Source: Microvirga puerhi (lineage in GTDB: Bacteria > Pseudomonadota > Alphaproteobacteria > Rhizobiales > Beijerinckiaceae). Taken from it: DNA of 64,000 nt. The stretch spans positions 372,001 through 436,000 of the forward strand of contig NZ_JAIRBM010000001.1 of assembly GCF_020089865.1 (NCBI RefSeq), given 5' to 3'. Under the pieces are notes generated by a model. The model worked only from the letters and a program-made list of their open reading frames with translations, ran no database searches and had not been told where the DNA came from. Numbering within the stretch: the stretch's first letter is position 1; every line of letters begins with the position of its first letter. Made by a program: the position numbers and the translations under genes. Positions 6,966-26,905 of this stretch are shown here, piece by piece.

Positions 6966-7580
6966 CTAGGTGCGGTCGAAGACGTCGGGCTGCAACTTCC
7001 CGATCCTCAAGAGATGTTGCAGCGCGTATGTCACGGAGAGCGCGTCGTCGAGAGCATCGTGTCCGTGCAACGGAGGATGCCGGACGCCGTAATAGTCCGC
7101 GAGCTTGTTACTAGGGGTCTTTGCGATATCGTCTATCGGCATGCCGGCTGCGATCACGAGCTTGACGGCGTTATCGAACCGGTGCGCCGGGATCGATGGC
7201 GGGATGCCCGCGACATAGCAGCTGATGGCGACCATGTTCAGCTCGTCCTTGCCCCACGACCAGAACCGCGCACCGTCTGAAAAGCGGTCAATTCCAGCGA
7301 GGGCTTCCTGTAAGGCCATCCCCTTGGTCTCTATGTCTTCCCCCATGATCCCGGTCAGCTTGGTGAAGAACGGGTCTATGGCATACCTGTTGCCAAACCG
7401 GTCGATCGGCTGAACGTAGGCTTTGTATGTATCCAGAAGGGGGAAATCGCCCTCCAGCCCGATTTTCACCGCGCCGATCTGTGCGATCACCGGATCGGGG
7501 TCGTGAGCCGCGCACCAAAACCGGCTCTGCGAGCCCTGGATGCAAAGAAACTCGCAGTCGAATACGATTGCCGTTTTCAT
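6966..7580 (-). CDS. DEDDh 3'-5' exonuclease family protein
   Basis: A 204-residue stand-alone RNase T/DNA-Q-type exonuclease. The first acidic pair is in AIVFDCEFL (residues 4-12), a middle aspartate in WGKDELN, and the last motif is HDALDDALSVTYAL, matching HxAxxD of the DEDDh group. It should hydrolyse 3' ends of DNA or RNA with two metal ions. ATG 7580 starts directly at the first beta strand; the upstream frame to 7778 has no domain content. The gene is transcribed away from the argC leader region. Confidence 0.82.
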   Translation of the reverse strand: MKTAIVFDCEFLCIQGSQSRFWCAAHDPDPVIAQIGAVKIGLEGDFPLLDTYKAYVQPIDRFGNRYAIDPFFTKLTGIMGEDIETKGMALQEALAGIDRFSDGARFWSWGKDELNMVAISCYVAGIPPSIPAHRFDNAVKLVIAAGMPIDDIAKTPSNKLADYYGVRHPPLHGHDALDDALSVTYALQHLLRIGKLQPDVFDRT

Positions 7581-7752
7581 GAGCGTTGCCCGGTGCCTTG
7601 TCCCTTCCCAGCATAGCATTGCCGTTGTTCGGCGGCAGGTGGACTGGGGCAGTCGGTCTCGCGTGGCTAGATCAGGAACCGCGACAGGCTCTCCAACACG
7701 CCTGTGAACCTCCATCCTAACCCATACGCATCCTCCTCGAATGCCGCGCTTG

Positions 7753-7781
7753 TTGACAACGGTGGCGTTGCAGCGCATGTC
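7753..7781 (+). promoter_or_regulatory. Candidate promoter for the argC leader
   Basis: TTGACA (7753-7758) is a perfect -35 box; 17 bp later CATGTC (7776-7781) is a weak -10. The spacing predicts a transcript start at or next to A7788, which is the first base of the Arg-rich leader ORF. Confidence 0.45.
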
Positions 7782-7787
7782 TTGACC

Positions 7788-7850
7788 ATGATCATTCGGA
7801 CCACCATCCGCCGACGTTCCATGAACGCTCCCGCTGCGCGAGCGCGATGA
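7788..7850 (+). CDS. Arg-rich leader peptide upstream of argC
   Basis: A 20-codon ORF encoding MIIRTTIRRRSMNAPAARAR. Six codons are arginine, three consecutive (CGC CGA CGT) and two near the end (CGA, CGA). No Shine-Dalgarno sequence precedes it, and the predicted transcript start falls on its ATG, so it would be leaderless, as known for the rhizobial trp leader. An intrinsic terminator begins 22 bases after its stop and argC begins at 7958. The layout matches classical ribosome-mediated attenuation, here for arginine. Seen: ORF, codons, terminator. Inferred: regulatory role. Confidence 0.5.
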   Translation: MIIRTTIRRRSMNAPAARAR

Positions 7851-7871
7851 CGGCTATTGAAGTCTGATCGC

Positions 7872-7898
7872 AAGCCGCGCCCGATGCGCGGCTTTTTT
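7872..7898 (+). terminator. Attenuator terminator before argC
   Basis: AAGCCGCGC (7872-7880) and GCGCGGCTT (7886-7894) form a 9-bp stem with loop CCGAT, followed by a run of T. No other plus-strand gene precedes it apart from the Arg-rich leader ORF. GCGCG stretches at the end of the leader ORF (7836-7846) could pair with CGCGC of the 5' arm as an antiterminator. Confidence 0.7.
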
Positions 7899-7957
7899 AT
7901 TTTCTCTTCCGGAATAAGCCTTATATCAGCGGCCTGACAGGCAGAACGGATCTGGCG

Positions 7958-8926
7958 ATGACCACCATGACGACCTCCACGACATCATCCGACGCGCGGA
8001 CCAAGACTGTGTTCATCGACGGGGAGGCCGGTACCACTGGCCTCGGCATCCGCGATCGCCTCAAGGGAGAGCCCGGGATTGCGATCAAGAGCATCGACCC
8101 GGAGCGGCGCAAGGATCCCGCGGCCAAACGCGAGATCCTCGGTGAGGTGGATCTGGTGGTCCTGTGCCTGCACGACGATGCCGCTCGGGAGACGGTGGCC
8201 CTCGTCGATGCGCTGGATGGCCGGAAACCGAAGATCGTCGATGCCAGCACGGCGCATCGGGTAAGCCCCGGCTGGGTCTATGGCTTCGCCGAGCTCGCCC
8301 CGTCGCAGCGCGACGCCATTGTAAAGGCGGACCGGGTTGCCAATCCCGGCTGCTACCCGACGGGAGCGATCGCGCTCATTCGCCCGCTTGTGGACGAAGG
8401 ACTGATACCGCCGGACTATCCGATCAGCGTCAATGCGGTCAGCGGCTATAGCGGCGGCGGCCGGTCCATGATCGAAGCTTATGAGGCAGGCACCGCGCCC
8501 GCCTTCGAACTCTACGGCCTGGGCTTCGAGCACAAGCACGTGCCCGAATTGCAAAAGTATACCGGCCTCGTGCGCCGCCCGATCTTCGTACCGTCGGTCG
8601 GCAATTTCCGCCAAGGCATGCTTGTCAGCGTGCCGCTGCACCTGGACATGCTTCCGAAGCAGCCAAAGGCCGAGGAGTTGGAGGCCGTTCTGAGCCGCTG
8701 GTACGCCGGCAGTCAGATCGTTTCCGTCCTTACCACGCACTCGGACGGAAAACGCCTCGAGCGGATCGAGCCCGAGGCGTTGAACGATACGAACTTGATG
8801 GAGCTCCGCGTGTTCCGGAACGACGCCTATGACCACGCCGTCCTGGTCGCGCGCCTCGACAATCTCGGCAAGGGAGCGTCAGGCGCAGCGGTTCAGAACA
8901 TCAAGCTCATGCTCGGTCTAGACTGA
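7958..8926 (+). CDS. argC: N-acetyl-gamma-glutamyl-phosphate reductase, type 2
   Basis: A 322-residue ArgC that reduces N-acetylglutamyl phosphate to the semialdehyde with NADPH in arginine biosynthesis. Visible are [10 protein letters not shown] (nucleotide-binding loop, about 22-31), VDASTAHR and the active-site segment [10 protein letters not shown] with Cys132. Length and the short N-terminus fit the type 2 subfamily. It is preceded by the leader peptide and terminator described at 7788-7898. Its 3' end overlaps the convergent FAH-family gene by nine bases, so no terminator separates them. Confidence 0.93.
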
Positions 8927-20145: not shown

Positions 20146-20220
20146 GCGGCCTTCGTCTATCGGTTAGGACACCAGCCTTTCACGCTGGGAAGAGGGGTTC
20201 GATTCCCCTAGGCCGCGCCA
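20146..20220 (+). tRNA. tRNA-Glu (anticodon UUC)
   Basis: Acceptor GCGGCCT pairs with AGGCCGC; discriminator G and an encoded CCA end at 20220. The anticodon stem CCAGC/GCTGG encloses CTTTCAC, giving TTC at 20179-20181. The T-arm GGGGTTCGATTCCCC is intact. Confidence 0.97.
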
Positions 20221-26384: not shown

Positions 26385-26461
26385 CGGGGTGTAGCGCAGT
26401 CTGGTAGCGCATCTGCTTTGGGAGCAGAGGGTCGCGGGTTCAAATCCTGCCGCCCCGACCA
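26385..26461 (+). tRNA. tRNA-Pro (anticodon UGG)
   Basis: Acceptor CGGGGTG pairs with CGCCCCG; discriminator A and an encoded CCA follow. The anticodon stem TCTGC/GCAGA encloses TTTGGGA, giving TGG. The T-arm CGGGTTCAAATCCTG is intact. Confidence 0.97.
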
Positions 26462-26828: not shown

Positions 26829-26905
26829 GGCCCCGTAGCTCAGCTGGATAGAGCAGCCGCCTTCTAAGCGGCAGGTCGCAGGTTCGAACCCTGCCGGGGT
26901 CGCCA
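26829..26905 (+). tRNA. tRNA-Arg (anticodon UCU)
   Basis: Acceptor GGCCCCG pairs with CGGGGTC (one G-U), discriminator G and an encoded CCA. The anticodon stem GCCGC/GCGGC encloses CTTCTAA, giving TCT. The T-arm CAGGTTCGAACCCTG is intact. Confidence 0.97.

Follow-up and report, generated by a model that had tools for sequence, protein, structure and literature searches.

The leader region upstream of argC

The stretch of DNA analysed in this work (64,000 nucleotides, referred to below as the window) carries on its plus strand a gene for N-acetyl-gamma-glutamyl-phosphate reductase (argC), which is preceded by a short Arg-rich open reading frame (ORF) and an intrinsic terminator (Table 1). The ArgC protein matches the NCBIfam family argC_other with 400 bits (cut-off 230), in agreement with the first-pass annotation of this DNA, which had named argC as the next gene and had also given the TTGACA box and the 20-codon ORF, with its six Arg codons of which three are consecutive, correctly in both coordinates and sequence, as seen by direct reading. 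The Arg codons of the leader are CGG, CGC, CGA, CGT, CGA, and CGA, the three in tandem being located at 7809-7817, and the motif GCGCG is present twice (7836-7840 and 7842-7846). The terminator stem (7872-7894) consists of 9 pairs with a loop of 5 and is followed by a T-rich tail; the hairpin lies where it had been annotated, and only its end needs to be moved, as position 7898 is the end of the first T run and the tail continues to 7903. The nearest upstream ORF is on the minus strand (predicted at 6966-7778).

Table 1. Positions of the promoter elements, leader segments and argC in the window.
Feature	Position	Strand	Basis
-35 box TTGACA	7753..7758	+	Direct sequence reading
Weak -10 box CATGTC, 17-nt spacing	7776..7781	+	Direct sequence reading
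Leader ORF MIIRTTIRRRSMNAPAARAR, 20 codons ending in TGA; predicted to be leaderless (ATG at or near +1)	7788..7850	+	
Segment 1, putative control codons CGC CGA CGT (Arg-Arg-Arg)	7809..7817	+	Consensus fold: pairs with segment 2
Segment 2, GCGCGAGCGCG; putative 5' strand of antiterminator; codes for the peptide end ARAR	7836..7846	+	
Segment 3, AAGCCGCGC; 5' arm of terminator and putative 3' strand of antiterminator	7872..7880	+	
Segment 4, GCGCGGCTT followed by T-rich tail; 3' arm and tail of terminator	7886..7903	+	
argC, N-acetyl-gamma-glutamyl-phosphate reductase, type TIGR01851	7958..8926	+	NCBIfam

The -10 box of the window is poor (CATGTC), and CATANA is found at the same place in many relatives within the genus. 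A scan of 7580-7960 for the sigma-70 consensus yielded no promoter, and the single-sequence fold of the leader is weakly better than that of shuffled sequences (z -1.29); one intrinsic terminator is observed in the leader region, where shuffled sequences yield 0.3 on average. Because the consensus scan is empty and the fold reaches a z of only -1.29, the window copy proves little by itself, and a more-than-chance case for the leader would have to come from comparison with other genomes rather than from this single copy. At the Rfam gathering cut-off, only tRNAs were recovered from the whole window. The window carries a tRNA-Arg with a TCT anticodon (26829-26905), a tRNA-Pro nearby (26385-26461), and a tRNA-Glu (20146-20220).

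Conservation of the leader within the genus

ArgC is present in all 48 genomes of the window's genus, and individual reading of the upstream regions located the leader before argC in 45 of them. The first-pass annotation had named a lack of conservation of the ORF or its Arg codons in relatives as the observation that would count against an attenuator; the opposite was found, since the leader occurs in these 45/48 genomes and in 22 further genera. The N-termini of the leader peptides vary within the genus (viz. MTNRPLIL, MNQSLFII, MTIFSDI, and MIIVSDI), an Arg pair or triplet is present in 43 of the 45 leaders, and most of the C-termini read ARxR. The leader is absent before argC in three genomes of the genus (loci L030, L126, and L127 of genomes G012, G010, and G022, respectively); at L030, the end of rpsI and its terminator directly adjoin argC, with no leader between them. 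At another locus of the genus (L120; genome G011, C10:124580-125380), about 110 bases that contain inverted repeats are inserted in the terminator loop and the leader ORF is intact; this insert is a natural lesion of the proposed attenuator.

Distribution of the leader beyond the genus

To cover other genera, a covariance model (R1), built from an alignment of 46 leaders (A1), was used to search 298 genomes of the family, and a broader model (R2), built from an alignment of 36 diverse leaders (A2), was run on 397 genomes of the order and 385 genomes of the class. Our analyses have identified 108 leaders (107 distinct) in 23 genera and 10 families, a collection in which typical members are favoured, as the search models for leaders beyond the genus were built on the same features. 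The leader sequences at L164 (genus g12) and L036 (Bosea) are identical; hence, g12 was taken as Bosea, the two loci probably represent one genome, and the 108 leaders comprise 107 distinct ones (L036 and L046 are counted under g12).

Within the family and outside the genus, R1 gave 45 places at E < 1e-8. Of the 35 that were examined, 34 are Arg-rich leaders before argC, and the other ten places are all in g12; the exception (L192 in G134, 5e-9) has no argC inside the examined stretch. Among 14 weaker R1 places that were examined (L195-L208), four are argC leaders and ten lack argC by tblastn. In the order, R2 gave a match at E <= 1e-4 in 25 genomes, of which 21 (own genome included) were judged real upon inspection and four (G449, G614, G521, and G384) were rejected; its five matches in the class are the own genome and four others, all four of which are real. 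One leader (L232) was detected by R1 only. In the window's own genome, the copy before argC alone stands out (91 bits with R2); the second-best match (C43:145221-145327, 36 bits) is a terminator after another gene and the remaining matches are at or below 27 bits. Other candidates were discarded, either as resembling the ends or terminators of other genes (L224, L226, L228, L231, L233, L234, L253, L255, and L256), as a terminator that has no leader (L229), or as lacking ArgC by tblastn (L230, L235, and L236).

In a set of 80 named argC loci, R2 found the leader only in three Microvirga and two Bosea loci, the rest scoring at most 21 bits. The nearest named ArgC to that of the window is from Microvirga, the first-pass annotation having placed the window among the Methylobacteriaceae, and at the seven argC loci labelled Methylobacterium the leader was absent by either scan. 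A looser scan additionally flags two of the named loci, L062 and L084; the former, from a Hyphomicrobiales metagenome-assembled genome, has a possible leader (MIGPIYRRIRDQAR) at promoter spacing about 230 nt upstream of argC, which was missed by R2.

This distribution bears on the simplest explanation of the region, viz. that an ordinary terminator at the 3' end of an upstream gene lies beside a chance ORF. Partial matches to the terminator part alone are indeed frequent in the searched genomes, as this explanation would have it; however, the ORF that precedes the leader in the window lies on the minus strand, and in 23 genera the terminator is accompanied by the promoter box, the ORF, and the Arg codons; we regard this explanation as extremely improbable.

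Predicted transcript start, reading frame, and Arg codons

A TTGAC or TTGAT box is located 35-37 nt upstream of the leader ATG in 105 of the 108 leaders, which were sought only at box-to-ATG spacings of 33-40 nt. From this spacing, we infer that the transcript begins at the first codon of the leader or very near it.

The Arg codons follow the reading frame of this ATG. In the leader frame, two consecutive Arg residues (RR) are encoded in 104/108 leaders and three (RRR) in 78/108, RRR being missing in 30; when these bases are read in frame +1 or +2, RR appears in 35 and 38 leaders and RRR in 1 and 3, respectively. Arg makes up a fraction of 0.28 of the leader peptides versus 0.13 when the bases of each ORF are shuffled. 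Frame +2 is also open in 94/108 leaders, and the openness of the ORF is therefore uninformative by itself. If the first ATG at promoter spacing is taken regardless of what comes after it, the first CGAYG falls in its frame in 106/108 leaders, and the length from ATG to CGA in these 106 ranges from 9 to 36 nt. When one representative per genus was anchored at the CGA codon, which makes position 0 Arg by construction, the next codon was for Arg in 21/23, and at none of the six preceding positions was any one residue shared by more than 6/23. In many genera, the pair has additional Arg codons beside it. Hence, the frame, the Arg codons, the terminator, and the spacing from promoter to ATG have been kept as other codons drifted, and the suggestion of the first-pass annotation that this may be an arginine attenuator gains support.

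The same observations weigh upon an explanation in which the ORF is incidental, the Arg codons being a by-product of conserved RNA (CCGACG and GCGCG) that would form, with the terminator, an untranslated switch or a binding site for a protein. The near invariance of CGACG and GCGCG in A1 and their ability to pair with each other are in keeping with such an RNA, and the conservation of CGACG may in part reflect RNA pairing instead of codons. However, an incidental ORF is difficult to reconcile with a CGAYG that stays in the ATG frame despite differing lengths, with the 78 in-frame RRR against 1 and 3 in other frames, with the extra Arg codons beside the pair, and with an ATG at promoter spacing; we consider it very improbable.

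Every one of the 108 leaders has an in-frame CGA with CGN or TGN as the next codon, CGA-CGN being found in 104/108, and in 14/108, the window included, a further Arg codon directly precedes the CGA. RR is missing in L024, L123, L159, and L184, and at L176 it is confined to a run-on part of the ORF; in these five leaders, which belong to three genera, CGA-CGN is replaced by CGA-TGN (Arg-Cys or Arg-Trp) and the second Arg is lost. Overall, CGA accounts for 265 of the 570 leader Arg codons, an excess that is partly due to the CGA before TGA, which belongs to segment 2; across 34 long ORFs of the window, its share is 7.9% of 984 Arg codons. This minor codon is decoded via inosine wobble, and poly-Arg and rare codons can stall ribosomes. 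The leader could then sense slow decoding generally, or a stress that targets the ribosome, and not the supply of arginine specifically. The occurrence of CGA with CGN or TGN in every leader, despite its rarity in the window's long ORFs, and the possibility of stalling by poly-Arg and rare codons agree with this explanation, which we nevertheless hold to be improbable, since the downstream gene is argC or argD in 107/108 cases and, in Salmonella orf34-speF, control by arginine is described with rare and frequent Arg codons alike (PMC6386406).

Terminator and alternative pairings

Terminator hairpins are present in both alignments (46 rows in A1 and 36 rows in A2). The first GCGCG of segment 2 does not vary among the 46 aligned leaders, and in 46/46 it could pair with segment 3. 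When A1 was folded without the Arg codons and everything 5' of them, this GCGCG (columns 49-53) was placed opposite the CGCGC of the terminator arm in 46/46, and the fold continued with GCG:CGC and GGC:GYC helices with few breaks. The pairing of leader GCGCG with the 5' arm of the terminator, which had been proposed from the window by itself, forms the core of the putative consensus antiterminator. The full A1 consensus fold has the terminator instead, together with a pairing of CGACG with GCGCG that is possibly a protector hairpin. Little covariation is seen because GCGCG and CGACG hardly vary.

The duplex of segments 2 and 3 is stronger than in shuffled sequences when the medians of 23 genera, which are related, are combined (z -4.1); by genus, p <= 0.04 is reached in 6/23 only, and in 4/23 the duplex does no better than the shuffles (z above 0). 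In a model of switching that uses equilibrium rather than co-transcriptional folding and an assumed ribosome footprint, the probability of the terminator, averaged over genera, is 0.68 when the RNA carries no ribosome, falls to 0.54 (0.22 in the window's genus) when one occupies the Arg pair, and rises to 0.94 when it has reached the stop codon. The leader with the interrupted terminator (L120) is included in both the duplex statistics and the switching averages. Before the 3' arm has been made, the 5' arm of the terminator is modelled to be more sequestered when the ribosome is stalled than when it is at the stop in 21/23 genera, f14 and f1g21 going in the wrong direction, and others (f146, f173, f1g39, and f2g157 among them) hardly switch in the model, the probability of the terminator staying high with a stalled ribosome. 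In the leaders measured by eye, the last control codon lies 15-18 nt 5' of GCGCG; at this distance, segment 2 would stay accessible during stalling and would be covered once the ribosome reached the stop. As modelled, this is the layout of a classical attenuator.

Proposed mechanism and its relation to known systems

With high probability, the leader controls argC as a ribosome-mediated transcription attenuator, the sensed signal being charged arginine tRNA. This interpretation is strongly supported by the comparison of the leader sequences, in which the ORF, its codons, the terminator, their conservation, and the alternative pairings can be read directly, and by genomes in which no ArgR domain was detected. 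In the mechanism that we infer, including where transcription starts, that the leader is translated, that ribosomes stall on it, that termination takes place in the cell, and that arginine is the signal, RNA polymerase would start at or near the leader ATG and produce a leaderless mRNA, and a ribosome would follow the polymerase, translating the leader. With plentiful Arg-tRNA, the ribosome would clear the Arg codons, reach the stop, and cover segment 2 (GCGCG and the bases that follow), so that segments 3 and 4 would form the terminator and argC would be off. With Arg-tRNA in short supply, the ribosome would stall at the CGA-CGN codons slightly 5' of segment 2, which would be free to pair with segment 3; the terminator would then fail to form and argC would be transcribed. 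The leader is thus very probably a switch that turns argC on when arginine is short.

The his, leu, thr, and ilv attenuators of enterobacteria have control codons, an antiterminator formed by segments 2 and 3, and a terminator formed by segments 3 and 4, and the leader proposed here would have the same control logic and differs in the amino acid. A closer parallel is trpL of Sinorhizobium meliloti, a leaderless ORF with its ATG at the 5' end of the transcript and ribosome-mediated attenuation (PMC7298713). The two share a short ORF with the ATG at the 5' end of the transcript (here predicted), consecutive codons for the regulated amino acid, a terminator that competes with an antiterminator (here putative), and a biosynthesis gene downstream (PMC7298713); they differ in that the argC leader has Arg instead of Trp codons and precedes argC or argD instead of trpE(G). 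The window leader scores 16.0 bits against Rfam Trp_leader (below the cut-off of 41) and 16.4 bits against Leu_leader RF00512 (below the cut-off of 50). Its mode of action would appear to be that of the trp attenuator, arginine being the signal; it falls outside the Trp_leader family.

Consecutive Arg codons in a bacterial leader ORF are also known from orf34-speF of Salmonella (PF10940), where ribosomes are described as pausing at two consecutive Arg codons under low arginine (PMC6386406). Unlike the argC leader, orf34-speF precedes a polyamine gene and acts by Rho, masking of a ribosome site, and RNase G rather than by an intrinsic terminator and an antiterminator; it also belongs to the gammaproteobacteria and encodes a different peptide. 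The uORFC-8-2 motif before cysS in Rhodobacterales is likewise an alphaproteobacterial upstream ORF with tandem cognate codons and features of attenuation (PMC8632094), and differs in its Cys codons, its tRNA synthetase gene, and its order. A leader peptide has been reported for carA of Pseudomonas aeruginosa and is mentioned in a paper that describes pyrimidine control by attenuation (PMC4997734); it resembles the present one in preceding a gene of the arginine/pyrimidine branch and differs in the gene and the bacterial group. An attenuator of this kind for arginine biosynthesis was found in none of the literature matches listed, in a search that covered mostly non-subscription papers. Because these precedents differ and the leader is below all of the Rfam cut-offs, the novelty would lie in a ribosome-mediated attenuator with an arginine signal, an apparently leaderless ORF, and a recurrent CGA. 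If this is true, arginine joins the amino acids whose biosynthesis genes are under a classical terminator/antiterminator attenuator, here of a leaderless kind, and the recurrent CGA provides a natural experiment on the choice that attenuators make among synonymous codons.

Downstream genes and arginine regulation

An arginine synthesis gene (argC or argD) was identified downstream of 107 of the 108 leaders by the ArgC search, tblastn, or NCBIfam. By NCBIfam, argC of the window's type (TIGR01851) also follows the leaders L257, L261, and L232, and the divergent argC type TIGR01850 follows the leader in all 12 loci of g62 and at L180 and L183 (14/14). The gene argD is downstream of L214 and L258, the protein at L258 being cut by the end of the stretch and hence scoring under the cut-offs. 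The leader is duplicated in genome G585, with L214 before argD and L257 before argC.

The ArgR domain (PF01316) was detected in 0/27 genomes (25 carriers of the leader and 2 non-carriers), the same search being positive in 9/14 controls. ArgR has been listed among factors conserved in gammaproteobacteria and absent in other classes (PMC5343134). With no ArgR domain in the 27 genomes, the leader makes the adjustment of arginine synthesis to arginine supply directly testable. It is conceivable, though we offer this as a tentative and rather doubtful extension, that these leaders constitute an undescribed alphaproteobacterial system of arginine attenuation in the role of ArgR, in which one type of leader, recognisable by an in-frame CGA with CGN (rarely TGN) as the next codon, has come to precede two divergent types of argC as well as argD, both genes being served in one genome, and reads the charge of the CGA-decoding tRNA; the terminated leaderless RNA and the Arg-rich peptide might in addition have effects in trans, like rnTrpL and peTrpL of Sinorhizobium.

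The one remaining leader of the 108, likewise Arg-rich and followed by a terminator, is located before a Rid-like gene instead of one for arginine biosynthesis (L213 in G538, oriented positions 1480-2050). The Rid-like protein scores below its family cut-off, and the next ORF resembles, by eye, an ACT-domain protein.
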